A DNA stretch of 32,207 nt from Elusimicrobia bacterium ADurb.Bin231 (GTDB taxonomy: Bacteria > Elusimicrobiota > UBA8919 > MWCF01), in contig MWCF01000027.1 in assembly GCA_002069855.1 (NCBI GenBank), forward strand, positions 1-32,207, given 5' to 3'. Every line of letters begins with the position of its first letter. Positions within the stretch are counted from its first letter, which is position 1. The notes beneath the pieces were generated by a model. The model saw only the letters and a program-made list of their open reading frames with translations. It searched no databases and was not told the DNA's origin. Shown in pieces: positions 1-12,293 of the stretch. Made by a program: the position numbers and the translations under genes.

Positions 1-435
1 CTGCTGCTCCCCGTCTTTGATTATTTTTCGCTCTTTCAATAAATTCAATATCTCTTCTTCAAACTTTTTGAAATATTCCACACCAAGCCGCTTCCTCATC
101 CTCGTTAATGTCGAGGAATCTATCTCTTTCTCACTCACGAACTGATCATAACCGCAAAAATATTGGACATATGGATTCTCTAAAAAATATTCTACCACTT
201 CTTTGTCGCTTAACACCGTCTGATGTTTCACTATCATTAACCCGTTGATTAACTGGCTGTCTTTACCGGGCCTGCCCAATTCAGAAAAATATTTCCTGTA
301 AATATCTTCCATCTCTTCCCACGGTATCAGGTCATGTAATTTCATCCAGCGGTTCTCGGAATTTAACTTCCCGCCGAACGGCATCATTTCCGTAAATAAG
401 TCTCCGGTTCTGCGATCTTTGCTTTTATAGGACAT
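1..435 (-). CDS. IS5-like transposase, N-terminal part (cut by window edge)
   Basis: An open frame of 145 codons runs from an ATG at 435 to the left edge with no stop, so the protein is incomplete here. It begins MSYKSKDRRTGDLF and contains the stretch ENRWMKLHDLIPWEEME, then GRPGKDSQLINGLMIVKH, a segment like the DUF772 domain at the N-terminus of IS5/IS1182-type transposases, followed by SSTLTRMRKRLG, a motif also typical of that group. The DDE catalytic domain would lie beyond the window. A good ribosome site (GGAGG, six bases before ATG) and a consensus-like promoter at 525-553 precede it, so it looks potentially active rather than decayed. The outer end of the element and its terminal repeats cannot be fixed because only one side is visible. 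Family placement is from motif memory. Confidence 0.75.
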   Translation of the reverse strand, partial: MSYKSKDRRTGDLFTEMMPFGGKLNSENRWMKLHDLIPWEEMEDIYRKYFSELGRPGKDSQLINGLMIVKHQTVLSDKEVVEYFLENPYVQYFCGYDQFVSEKEIDSSTLTRMRKRLGVEYFKKFEEEILNLLKERKIIKDGEQQ

Positions 436-457
436 TTCTTGCCTCCGCCAACTTTCC

Positions 458-503
458 AAACTGCAAGGGTTTTTGACGCTTTTCTTCGTTTTCCTTGCAG
501 TTT
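458..503. repeat. 11-bp perfect inverted repeat in transposase leader
   Basis: AAACTGCAAGG (458-468) and CCTTGCAGTTT (493-503) are perfect inverse complements separated by 24 bases. They lie between the putative transposase promoter (525-553, minus strand) and its ribosome site, so the transcript would carry a hairpin in its 5' leader. Each arm is also followed or preceded by a TTTTGACG direct repeat. It may limit transposase expression or mark an end of the element; the sequence does not decide between these. Confidence 0.6.
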
Positions 504-524
504 TGACGTTATTTTCTATGCCCT

Positions 525-553
525 ATTATACCTTTTCTTCGTCTTTATTTCAA
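525..553 (-). promoter_or_regulatory. Putative sigma-70-like promoter of the transposase gene
   Basis: On the minus strand TTGAAA (548-553) and TATAAT (525-530) are separated by 17 bases, close to the vegetative consensus. Transcription would begin near 518 and run through the inverted repeat at 458-503 to the ATG at 435. Confidence 0.55.
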
Positions 554-622
554 TAAACTTTGGCTTTTCTCAGTGAACCCTAAATACCAATATTTTTTCT
601 CCTGCAGATGCCGATTTCTTCT

Positions 623-1447
623 TCATATTCTTCTTACCATCCCAAATCCGGCGGAGTTGAGTTCGCCGAAGCCGCATTCGTAGCCGAATTTTATAAGTTC
701 TTGCGAGCCGGTTACTGTAAACGGGCACATTATTGCCGGAATTTTTATGTCTACTGTCTTACCACGAGATTCTTCGCTGCGCCCAGAATGATGAATGCTT
801 GGCAAAGAATGACTATTTGAAAATATAGATTTAATATAATGCATTAAAACCTGCGCTTTTGGCGATTTTATGTAAACATTGTCAAATTCAATTTTTAGTT
901 TGGTATCTTTGGGTTCTTTTCCAAAAAATGTTGTGTATTTATTGATTAGATTCTGTCTGATTTTTTCAGATATTTCTGATAGGTTATCATTCGGTTTATA
1001 GTAATATTTTGCCAGTTTGCCGTTATACTCTTTTTTGGTTGTTATTACAAGCGGAGAAAGACAGGAAAATTTGAGATTCTTCGCTTCAATCAGAATGACA
1101 TCTGGCAAAGTCTCTGTCTGGGTTATTGGGAAAGTGTATTGTCCAATTCGCAATCCGCCGAGTTCCAATAACCCGTTTACTAAGTTTTGAACGAATTCGT
1201 TCCATGGGGAGGATATATACCAGAAGAATTCAGGAGAGAGAATTTTTATTGAGGAATTGATTATTTTTTTTCGCGGGAACTGCAGCCACGAGAAGGTGAA
1301 AAATTTGAAATTTTTACTTTCATGCAGGTCTGACGAAAATTTTATATCAGCGGTTGCCAGATAGTTGTATATCGCGGATGATAAAAAATGCTGATAATTT
1401 ATCGGTACTGTTTGCTGTTGTGCTTGGAGCTTAAGTTTCAGTTGCAT
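623..1447 (-). CDS. cas6: CRISPR-associated endoribonuclease Cas6
   Basis: Cas6 cuts the repeat stems of precursor CRISPR RNA to make guide RNAs. The 274-residue protein shows the expected features: an N-terminal NYQHFLSSAIYNYL segment, LHESKNFKFFTFSWL at about residues 41-55 whose His42 matches the usual catalytic histidine position, and the C-terminal glycine-rich loop GFGELNSAGFGMV (259-271), the family hallmark. A ribosome site (AGGAG) precedes the ATG and a promoter lies at 1477-1504. No other cas gene and no array is visible in the window; neighbours are a transposase gene downstream and a pilin upstream, all on the same strand. Residues about 212-233 are encoded by a dispersed repeat inserted in frame; without it the protein would be about 252 residues. 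Whether it serves a distant CRISPR locus is unknown. Confidence 0.85.
   Translation of the reverse strand: MQLKLKLQAQQQTVPINYQHFLSSAIYNYLATADIKFSSDLHESKNFKFFTFSWLQFPRKKIINSSIKILSPEFFWYISSPWNEFVQNLVNGLLELGGLRIGQYTFPITQTETLPDVILIEAKNLKFSCLSPLVITTKKEYNGKLAKYYYKPNDNLSEISEKIRQNLINKYTTFFGKEPKDTKLKIEFDNVYIKSPKAQVLMHYIKSIFSNSHSLPSIHHSGRSEESRGKTVDIKIPAIMCPFTVTGSQELIKFGYECGFGELNSAGFGMVRRI
765..812. repeat. Copy of dispersed short repeat, in frame inside cas6
   Basis: The plus-strand string GAGATTCTTCGCTGCGCCC followed by AGAATGA matches the core of the repeat units found at 1515-1561 and 2219-2339. In cas6 it is translated as HHSGRSEESRG plus flanking residues. The boundaries are approximate because both sides are diverged. 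Confidence 0.65.
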
Positions 1448-1514: not shown

Positions 1515-1561
1515 GAACGAAATTCTTCATTTCGCTTTGCTACGCTAAGAATAACTGTGAC
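1515..1561. repeat. Copy of dispersed short repeat upstream of cas6
   Basis: The stretch GAAATTCTTCATTTCGCTTT-GCTACGCTAAGAATAAC matches the repeat core seen at 765-812 and 2219-2339 (an ATTCTTC half, a GCTACGC centre and an AGAATGAC-like half). It fills the gap between the pilin stop and the cas6 promoter. Confidence 0.55.
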
Positions 1562-2147: not shown

Positions 2148-2339
2148 GTCACACTGAGTGTAACGAAGTATTTCCTGCTTTGTTTTTCTTCTTCGTATGA
2201 CATTATTAACGGCAACGACGAGATTGCTTCGTCGCTACGCTCCTCGCAATGACAAGCAAGACGAGATTCTTCATTCCGCTTTGCTACATCCAGAATGACA
2301 GGCCGAAACGTTCGCTGCGCTACGTTCAGAATGACTGCG
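2148..2339. repeat. Cluster of degenerate dispersed palindromic repeats
   Basis: The gap between the pilin and the glycosyltransferase gene (2142-2455, about 310 bases) holds at least four units. One (2148-2175, GTCACACTGAGTGTAACGAA) is in reverse orientation; three run forward at 2219-2254, 2262-2302 and 2304-2339, each with the form CGAGATTCTTC / GCTNCGCT / AGAATGACA. Two arms of a unit are roughly inverse complements, so each can fold. Spacing is irregular and units differ by several bases, unlike a CRISPR array. The remainder, 2340-2455, is AT-rich and shows nothing else. Confidence 0.6.
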
Positions 2340-6122: not shown

Positions 6123-7343
6123 TCAACAGTTTCCGCCGGTTATATCTTTGTTTTCCGGTTTTGTTTCGAAGCGCGTTATTTCGCCCACTTTTTCCAATGC
6201 TATTTTAGTGCATACAGGTCCGACAATTTCGTATATGATTGTTGTGGCAAGGATAGTTGTAAAAATAACAGGTCCGGCCTGCGGGAAATCTGAACGAACT
6301 ACCAGAGCGCATCCGAGCGCAACACCTGCCTGAGGTACCAATCCAAGACCTATATATTTCTTGATATTATCCGGCGCACCTGATATATGTCCTCCTAAAT
6401 AACTGCCCAATGCTTTTCCGATGACCCTATAGATGATATATGCCACCCCTGTGATTCCGATATTTTTCAGCAACCCGATTTCCATATTCGCGCCCGCAAG
6501 AACGAAGAACAGCATATAGAGAGGAGGATCCACAGTGGATATAACATCGTAAAATTTAAAACTCTCGTGGTCTATGTTTACAAGCACCGCTCCGAAAAAC
6601 ATATTTGCTAGCAAAACGGAAAAATTAAATCCTATAGCGAGACCCGCGTTGAAAAATACGAATCCGATGCTGTAAATCAAGAATTCCGTTCTTGATTTTA
6701 TGAATCGTTTGGCTTTTGTCATTAACAGAGCTGTTAAACTGCCCAGTATGAATGCCCCGAATATCTCCGCCCCTGCCGAGAGAATAACTTTTATATAAAA
6801 AAGGTTGGATACCGTCTGCCTTACATATATTGCTTTTGATAATGCGAGAGATATGGCAAAGATGATAAGGCACCAAGCGTCGTCTATAGCCACAACCCCA
6901 AGCAGTGTGTTTGTAAAATTTCCTTTTGCTTTGTATTCCCGTATGATCATTACAGTGGCCGCTGGAGCTGTGGCTGCTGAAATCGCGCCGAAAAGTATTG
7001 CGATATGAAAAGGTTTTTTTAACGCGAGAAATATAAGTGTTACGAGTATCCACGCTCCCATGGCTTCAAGTATGGAAATCCACAGCACAGATGAGCCGAT
7101 TTTTCTGAAACTTTCAAAAGAAAAATTTCTGCCTATACTGAACGCTATAAATCCGAGCACAACATTTGATATCAATCCCGACGCTGCGAGTATGCTGCCG
7201 GATACAACATTTAAAAATGATCCTCCGAGAATAACTCCGAGCAGTAAATAGGCAGTTACAGCCGGAAGATGTATTTTGTTTAGAATCCTTGCTGCCAAAA
7301 CGCTTGCCAAAAAAATGACTCCTACCGAAAGTATGGTGTTCAT
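6123..7343 (-). CDS. CPA2-family cation/proton antiporter
   Basis: A 406-residue inner-membrane protein with about 12 hydrophobic helices, beginning MNTILSVGVIFLASVLAARIL. It has the family pattern of Kef/NapA-type exchangers: HLPAVTAYLLLGVILGG in helix 2, and VVAIDDAWCLI near residue 150, where the paired Asp residues form the ion-binding site of electrogenic Na+/H+ exchangers. There is no RCK/TrkA nucleotide-binding domain at the C-terminus, which ends in a short hydrophilic tail. The CBS-domain protein gene lies only 14 bases upstream and could provide the regulatory part. Na+ versus K+ specificity cannot be decided, though the DD pair favours Na+/H+ exchange. Confidence 0.85.
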   Translation of the reverse strand: MNTILSVGVIFLASVLAARILNKIHLPAVTAYLLLGVILGGSFLNVVSGSILAASGLISNVVLGFIAFSIGRNFSFESFRKIGSSVLWISILEAMGAWILVTLIFLALKKPFHIAILFGAISAATAPAATVMIIREYKAKGNFTNTLLGVVAIDDAWCLIIFAISLALSKAIYVRQTVSNLFYIKVILSAGAEIFGAFILGSLTALLMTKAKRFIKSRTEFLIYSIGFVFFNAGLAIGFNFSVLLANMFFGAVLVNIDHESFKFYDVISTVDPPLYMLFFVLAGANMEIGLLKNIGITGVAYIIYRVIGKALGSYLGGHISGAPDNIKKYIGLGLVPQAGVALGCALVVRSDFPQAGPVIFTTILATTIIYEIVGPVCTKIALEKVGEITRFETKPENKDITGGNC

Positions 7344-10913: not shown

Positions 10914-12293
10914 GTGAATACGGAAATTAACGATACCATAGCGGCAATATCCACCTGTTTCGGTGAAGCCGGCATAGGCATTATCAGATTAAGCGGACCT
11001 GACGCGTTTTCTGTTGTTTCACGATTTTTTCATCCATGCGGAAAACTTTCCATAGACGAATTTCCCTCGCATACTGTTCACTTAGGTAAAATTCTTGATA
11101 AAGAAAAATTGATTGACGAGGCCCTTCTTACAGTGATGAAATCTCCCAAATCCTATACAGGCGAGAATATGGCTGAAATTTCATGCCACGGCGGAGTATA
11201 TATATTGCGCAAAACCCTTGAGATGTGTTTGGAAAACGGCGCAAGGCAGGCAGAGCCAGGCGAGTTTACTAAAAGGGCGTTTCTGAACGGCAAGATTGAT
11301 CTGTCTCAGGCAGAGGCTGTATGCGATGTTATAAAAGCAAAAACGGAATCCGCTCTTTCCTGCGCGGCCCAGCAGCTGCAGGGTTCTCTCAGAATATTTG
11401 TAGATGAACAGAAACGAAAGATTGTGGACTTGTTGGCAACAATAGAGGCCGGAATTGATTATTCTGAGGATGATATAGAAAGTTGCAGTATGCCGGAAAT
11501 AATATCCGCAATTCTTACATCGGAAAAAAGCATAGAAAATATAATTTCAACATTCCATATAGGCAAAATATTCAAAGAGGGCGTAAAAACCGCGATTATA
11601 GGGAAACCCAATGTCGGCAAGTCCTCTCTGTTAAATATCCTTTCAGGTTCGGACAGGGCAATAGTTACGGAAATTCCCGGGACGACCAGGGATTTGATAG
11701 AAGAAACTGTAAGCATACGCGGGATACCTTTGATCCTTGTTGATACCGCAGGTATCAGGCAGCACACATCTGATGCCGTTGAAAAGATAGGGGTGGAACG
11801 CGCGATGAACGCCGCAAATTACGCTGACCTTGTTCTATTTGTTGCGGACGCTTCCCGTCCGTTGACTGCTGACGACGAAAAAATAGCGGAATGCCTTGTT
11901 TCTAAAAAGGTGATACTTGTCCTTAATAAATCGGATTTACCGGGAAAAATAACAGATATAGAAGATTTAGGAGTAAACGCTCCTTCAGTAAAGATATCCG
12001 CGCTAAAAAATACAGGCATAGAGGAACTCAAAACCGCGATTTACGGAGTGTGCGTATCTGAGGATATTAATTTAGGCGGTTTTTTGCTTACAAATATCAG
12101 GCACAAAACTCTTTTGGAGAATGTGTTAAAATCTTTAAGCTCCGCGCGCGCAGCGGCATTGAAAGGTATGTCTGAGGAGTTTATAGCGCTTGATTTGCGT
12201 GCCGCTCTTGACTACCTTGGAAAAATTACCGGCGAGGTTACCACGGAAGATATACTTGGTGTTATATTTTCCCGCTTTTGTGTTGGTAAATAG
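10914..12293 (+). CDS. mnmE: tRNA modification GTPase MnmE
   Basis: With MnmG, MnmE makes the 5-carboxymethylaminomethyl (or related) group on U34 of certain tRNAs. The 459-residue protein has the N-terminal folate-binding domain (starting NDTIAAISTCFGEAGIGIIRLSG), a helical domain, and an inserted GTPase domain: P-loop GKPNVGKSS (about 230-238), DTAGIR switch II, NKSD specificity motif. It ends with FCVGK, the C-terminal Cys-x-Gly-Lys motif that carries the functional cysteine. The start is GTG at 10914, six bases after khpB, with no clear ribosome site. Its partner mnmG is not adjacent but lies two genes downstream. Confidence 0.97.
   Translation: MNTEINDTIAAISTCFGEAGIGIIRLSGPDAFSVVSRFFHPCGKLSIDEFPSHTVHLGKILDKEKLIDEALLTVMKSPKSYTGENMAEISCHGGVYILRKTLEMCLENGARQAEPGEFTKRAFLNGKIDLSQAEAVCDVIKAKTESALSCAAQQLQGSLRIFVDEQKRKIVDLLATIEAGIDYSEDDIESCSMPEIISAILTSEKSIENIISTFHIGKIFKEGVKTAIIGKPNVGKSSLLNILSGSDRAIVTEIPGTTRDLIEETVSIRGIPLILVDTAGIRQHTSDAVEKIGVERAMNAANYADLVLFVADASRPLTADDEKIAECLVSKKVILVLNKSDLPGKITDIEDLGVNAPSVKISALKNTGIEELKTAIYGVCVSEDINLGGFLLTNIRHKTLLENVLKSLSSARAAALKGMSEEFIALDLRAALDYLGKITGEVTTEDILGVIFSRFCVGK

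Follow-up and report, generated by a model that had tools for sequence, protein, structure and literature searches.

The question raised by this locus is how a palindromic repeat that lies dispersed between genes also came to sit in frame inside cas6, and what this would have meant for the enzyme. The DNA analysed, hereafter the window, is the whole stretch of 32,207 nucleotides, contig C27 of a 1.77 Mb genome (G000; 94% complete, 119 contigs). The features that bear on the question are the following.

1–582, minus strand: end of an IS5-type insertion sequence; its transposase (1–459) runs off the contig, and the element ends 40 nt past the cas6 stop
623–1447, minus strand: cas6, 274 codons (825 nt), type I-A/I-B-like Cas6
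752–829, minus strand: extra segment of cas6, residues 207–232; 26 codons against 3 in relative G135, net +69 nt
766–792, minus strand: REP-like element, copy 1 in cas6, near-consensus, translated in silico as HHSGRSEESR
806–813, minus strand: GTCATTCT, an additional 5' arm lying close upstream of copy 1, able to pair with the AGAATC arm
1073–1099, minus strand: REP-like element, copy 2 in cas6, 27 nt, reads VILIEAKNL
1519–1555, minus strand: intergenic copy upstream of cas6, 37-nt form, degenerate
2148–2174, plus strand: intergenic copy, degenerate
2220–2253, minus strand: intergenic copy with a TGC/GCA stem
2263–2299, minus strand: intergenic copy, 37-nt form, TCT/AGA stem

The cas6 gene and its two repeat copies

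The open reading frame on the minus strand is a genuine Cas6 gene. Its product matches Pfam PF01881 (E 4.5e-30), PF21350 and TIGR01877 (E 1.4e-40), and the top Foldseek matches of its predicted structure are solved Cas6 structures; a plasmid search for Cas6 gave no match. Profile, model and structure comparison together recover the RAMP fold, the catalytic Tyr/His/Lys and the glycine-rich loop. Tyr27, His42, Lys48 and the loop GFGELNSAGFGM (residues 259–270) are all intact, in agreement with an earlier note on this DNA that had singled out His42 and the loop. The spacing of the three residues equals that of Y31/H46/K52, which we take to be the triad of Pyrococcus Cas6. Methanocaldococcus Cas6-1 (PDB 5yi6) and Pyrococcus Cas6 (3i4h, 3pkm) share with the window protein the fold, the spacing of the catalytic residues and the glycine-rich loop, whereas the insert found here between the strands preceding that loop is absent from them.

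This insert contains copy 1. The closest Cas6 relative found, that of genome G135 (about 63% identical), does not have the extra segment, and its SSKAQVLVHYIKN-KLDIKIPAIMCPF (...HYIKN-KLDIKIPAIMCPF) aligns where the window protein has SPKAQVLMHYIKSIFSNSHSLPSIHHSGRSEESRGKTVDIKIPAIMCPF, so that 26 codons replace 3 and the frame is kept. The earlier note had placed a repeat at about 750–812 (residues 212–233) and proposed that 22 codons could be removed without loss of frame; the position and the frame stand, and the size becomes a net gain of 23 codons against G135. In an alignment, the residues are missing from the Cas6 proteins L027 and L028, from G135 and from six further archaeal and bacterial Cas6 sequences. 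No exact empty site was found among the relatives compared, only one of which exceeds 60% identity. About 15 nt of the extra segment on the 5' side of the element and some nucleotides on the 3' side are not recognisable as repeat, and the 5' arm at 806–813 may represent a truncated second copy.

In solved Cas6 relatives the insertion point corresponds to a turn joining ...KRxxIK and xxxRCSExVF directly before the glycine-rich region, where the earlier note had envisaged a surface loop. An AlphaFold2 model built from nine sequences (mean pLDDT 70.8, most core blocks 65–88) leaves residues 206–239 below 50, an outcome expected of a disordered surface loop and, because the alignment is shallow, one that weakly supports it.

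The earlier note described a single copy in cas6; a second, in-frame one had been missed. Copy 2 departs from GTCATTCTGAGCGAAGCGAAGAATCTC at two nucleotides, and the reading frame through the element is not the same in the two copies. Since a first covariance model (R1) had included both, a further model (R2) was built without either, and it recovered copy 1 at 29.6 bits (E 2.2e-4 in 32 kb) and copy 2 at 34.3 bits (E 2.4e-5 in 32 kb). Between the same flanks as the 27 nt of copy 2, G135 has 30 different nucleotides; copy 2 therefore has the look of a sequence exchange, or of an insertion offset by a loss, within a linker that is variable among relatives (L027 and L028 carry 14–15 extra residues there). 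With almost no change in length, copy 2 gives no clear sign of a clean insertion.

The repeat family and its likeness to known palindromes

About 102 copies of the repeat are present in the genome according to the covariance model, and a strict pattern finds 68 matches against 2 for its reversed control. The repetitive nature of the string, on which the earlier note depended, is thus confirmed genome-wide, and the intergenic occurrences it had given at 1515–1561 and 2219–2339 correspond to the three minus-strand intergenic copies listed above, the first of them degenerate. An Rfam search of the window returned nothing.

The repeat has the form (C/T)GTC-AT-NNN-GA-NN-loop-NN-GA-N'N'N'-AT-CTC. 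Its stem covaries strongly: NNN is the full complement of N'N'N' in 42 of 53 distinct copies, where shuffling gives a mean of 9.3 and never more than 19, and TCT/AGA, TGC/GCA, GTT/AAC, GCT/AGC, ACT/AGT, CCT/AGG and TAC/GTA are all represented. The covariation score of alignment A3 is 0.554, compared with 0.198 after shuffling and at most 0.089 when slid. AT/AT occupies the first two stem positions in every row of A3, but the search pattern demanded AT. Five pairs are followed by GA/GA and two further pairs around a loop of 3–13 nt (A3); the GA/GA interruption is nearly constant across copies and may form sheared G-A pairs. C or T precedes GTC in 86 of 102 copies, at a base lying outside the search models, and the full tag reads CGTC in 34 and TGTC in 43 (77 together). 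The tail is CTC in 75 of 102, the remainder being mostly CCC. Most copies are clustered (77 of 102), neighbours being oriented ++ in 20 cases, +- in 13, -+ in 12 and -- in 9. The consensus is open in four of its six frames, and copies within coding sequence occur in different frames and both orientations.

Known REPs are classed in superfamilies by their tag, GTAG or CGTC, and the CGTC repeats have no dedicated transposase (Di Nocera et al. 2013, PMC3733652). In several species REP copies have been recorded within genes, sometimes two per gene, and RPE-4 and RPE-6 of Rickettsia conorii belong to CGTC-4 and CGTC-1, respectively (PMC3733652). The window repeat has in common with CGTC-1 to CGTC-4 the unpaired CGTC/TGTC tag, alternative complementary stems, a mostly intergenic distribution with some intragenic copies, and the lack of a dedicated transposase (Y1_Tnp gave no match in the genome, and no mobilising enzyme was found); AT/AT as first stem pairs, which the search pattern imposed, may be a further common feature. 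It differs from them in that their stem is a continuous 8–9 bp with a loop of 4–5 nt, their tail is of the CCA type and head-to-head dimers predominate among them, whereas here GA/GA follows five pairs, the tail is CTC and no such excess of dimers accompanies the common clusters. Since it departs from the described families in stem length, tail and dimer orientation, we regard the repeat as behaving in the manner of a CGTC REP but name it a CGTC-like variant rather than placing it in CGTC-1 to CGTC-4.

The resemblance to Rickettsia in-frame elements suggested in the earlier note is borne out in the tag, and apparently the first stem pairs, shared with the superfamily of RPE-4 and RPE-6 (PMC3733652). 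These are short palindromes lying in frame in genes, twice in R. conorii uvrB as twice in the window cas6, and both cas6 and one further gene of this genome remain open around copies that relatives lack; phylum, sequence and target gene are different. GTAG REPs with RAYT are also short, imperfect, clustered palindromes with some intragenic copies, but both the GTAG tag and the Y1/RAYT transposase are absent here, and mobilisation by RAYT was set aside as unsupported in a genome without a Y1 transposase. Our literature searches turned up no paper describing in-frame repeats for cas genes or for Elusimicrobiota, and a search with the literal repeat sequence returned only unrelated papers.

Copies in other genes, other genomes and viral contigs

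When all 102 copies are placed, only two genes carry them well inside, cas6 and an ORF on contig C95 (L070, G000:C95, 5897–9190), and copies are thus strongly depleted inside genes. The C95 ORF, of 1098 codons and adjoining a helicase gene, encodes a relative of type IIG restriction-methylases (PADLOC E 9e-144; Eco57I domain). Its copies at 6864–6890, 6900–6928 and, in opposite orientation, 7289–7315, together with weaker ones, lie in frame at two sites. At both of these the residues contributed by the repeat are missing from the homologues of Parabacteroides and Lactococcus, the Parabacteroides protein having an unrelated segment at the first. Contigs C39 and C16 have ORFs whose copies lie close to the N-terminus; these were set aside as probably mis-started, the copies being probable 5' leaders because plausible starts lie downstream. 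Both genes with deep copies are defence genes, an observation that, with two genes noticed post hoc, is suggestive only. That such copies survive only in anti-phage defence genes, insertion or tolerance being favoured where proteins evolve fast, strikes us as unlikely; if true, REP insertion would supply defence proteins with new loops. Elsewhere in the window, 10914–12293 has weak PADLOC similarity to LeoA/LeoBC, probably a general GTPase resemblance.

Seven of eight sampled order-mates contain 37–136 strict matches (136 in G006). The closest named Cas6 relatives, L027 and L028, come from uncultured Endomicrobia of the same phylum, apparently G042:C47 and G053:C33. G042, G053 and G135 have 2–4 strict matches each, equal to the control background, so these relatives lack the repeat family as well as the insert. 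The alternative against which the earlier note had guarded, relatives with the same residues in repeat-free genomes, was accordingly not encountered. Some more distant genomes are rich in the repeat, with 331 matches in G087; within the phylum G087, G006, G034 and G036 stand out and most others are at background. Five genomes (G023, G058, G156, G187 and G285) have related palindromes with other loops, e.g. GTCATCCTGAACTTGATTCAGGATCTC, in which a GTCAT...ATCTC frame encloses covarying stems.

The same repeat occurs in 51 stretches of IMG/VR viral contigs, where 9 of 54 copies fall inside ORFs. One viral contig (L151) has it in frame in a GemA-family phage protein (7215–7643, minus strand; CHSERSEESH). 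With the GemA-family gene identified among the nine, the other eight being putative genes, in-frame reading of the repeat seems to be recurrent.

CRISPR context and the probable origin of the two copies

The earlier note saw no CRISPR array or further cas gene. The window indeed has no array, but the genome does: at C91:12789–13455 (L132, G000:C91), 11 uniform 30-nt repeats GTTTTAATTGAACCATTGTGGAATTGAAAT reach the contig end, with no cas genes seen among the ORFs of that contig. Compared with the array repeats next to the Cas6 relatives in L031 and in L035, this repeat agrees at 22 of 30 positions in each case, a level reached by none of 100,000 shuffles, which makes it the likely substrate of the window Cas6. 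In the assembly, Cas1 and DevR/Cas7 were not found, and nothing scored above the cut-off for Cas3. Downstream of cas6, L027 and L028 have cas3 and cas7, L028 also cas5 and a second cas6, where the window has the IS5-type end; window positions 1–582 recur unchanged at the start of contig C66 (L113, G000:C66, 1–582). The IS5-type element may have cut cas6 from its operon.

We consider it very probable that a REP-type family has multiplied in this lineage and that two of its copies entered cas6 in stop-free frames and were tolerated outside the catalytic core. Short palindromic repeats would have spread in these Elusimicrobiota without a transposase of their own, probably by a single-strand-DNA route. 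Copy 1 would have added 23 codons to a surface loop before the glycine-rich segment and copy 2 would have replaced a variable linker of nearly equal length, both probably being translated in a Cas6 that may have retained its activity; the mobility of the repeat and this order of events are inferred. The observation in the earlier note is confirmed by these results and its interpretation supported.

A chance similarity in an ordinary lineage-specific loop could appeal to the variable linker lengths of Cas6, as in L027 and L028 at the copy 2 site, and is extremely improbable in the face of two near-perfect copies within 825 nt, at the E values given by the independent model R2, and of control patterns that yield almost nothing. 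Scarcely more credible is the retention of the repeats as RNA hairpins in the cas6 mRNA, with a part in regulation or in a processing that Cas6 itself might carry out. A hairpin can form in the copy 1 region, and REPs are often transcribed (PMC3733652); against this, the fold energy of both copies is ordinary (z -1.29 for copy 1, +0.86 for copy 2), by which single-strand folding as a functional RNA was rejected, the element has no visible resemblance to the CRISPR repeat, and the other copies are not near cas genes.

A more serious contender, to which we give somewhat less than an even chance, is that cas6 is decaying: cut from its operon by the IS5-type element, it would be under relaxed selection, a young pseudogene that is still open. 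Such decay would explain the persistence of the copies and is compatible with their insertion. It is favoured by the negative searches for Cas1, Cas3 (above cut-off) and DevR/Cas7 and by the position of the IS5-type end, and the open frame says little against it because both copies are near consensus and hence young. What argues the other way is that all 274 codons are open with catalytic triad and glycine-rich loop intact, that a uniform 11-repeat array is present, and that contig ends fall at the insertion sequence and within the array, so that a 94%-complete assembly may just have failed to capture the remaining cas genes.

Taken as a product of insertion, the repeat in cas6 adds a further case, with a sequence variant of its own, to a known phenomenon; the gene it occupies is an unusual one. 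CGTC REPs have been listed for five phyla, Elusimicrobiota not among them (PMC3733652). In-frame palindromic insertion, described in Rickettsia and elsewhere, is here extended to a further phylum, Elusimicrobiota, and to an enzyme of the CRISPR system, and the repeat itself is a CGTC-like REP variant whose stem covariation is strong. Because Cas6 has solved relatives and a candidate cognate repeat, tolerance of the insertion would be directly assayable. Selfish DNA would here have become part of a protein, an uncommon outcome but an intelligible one.
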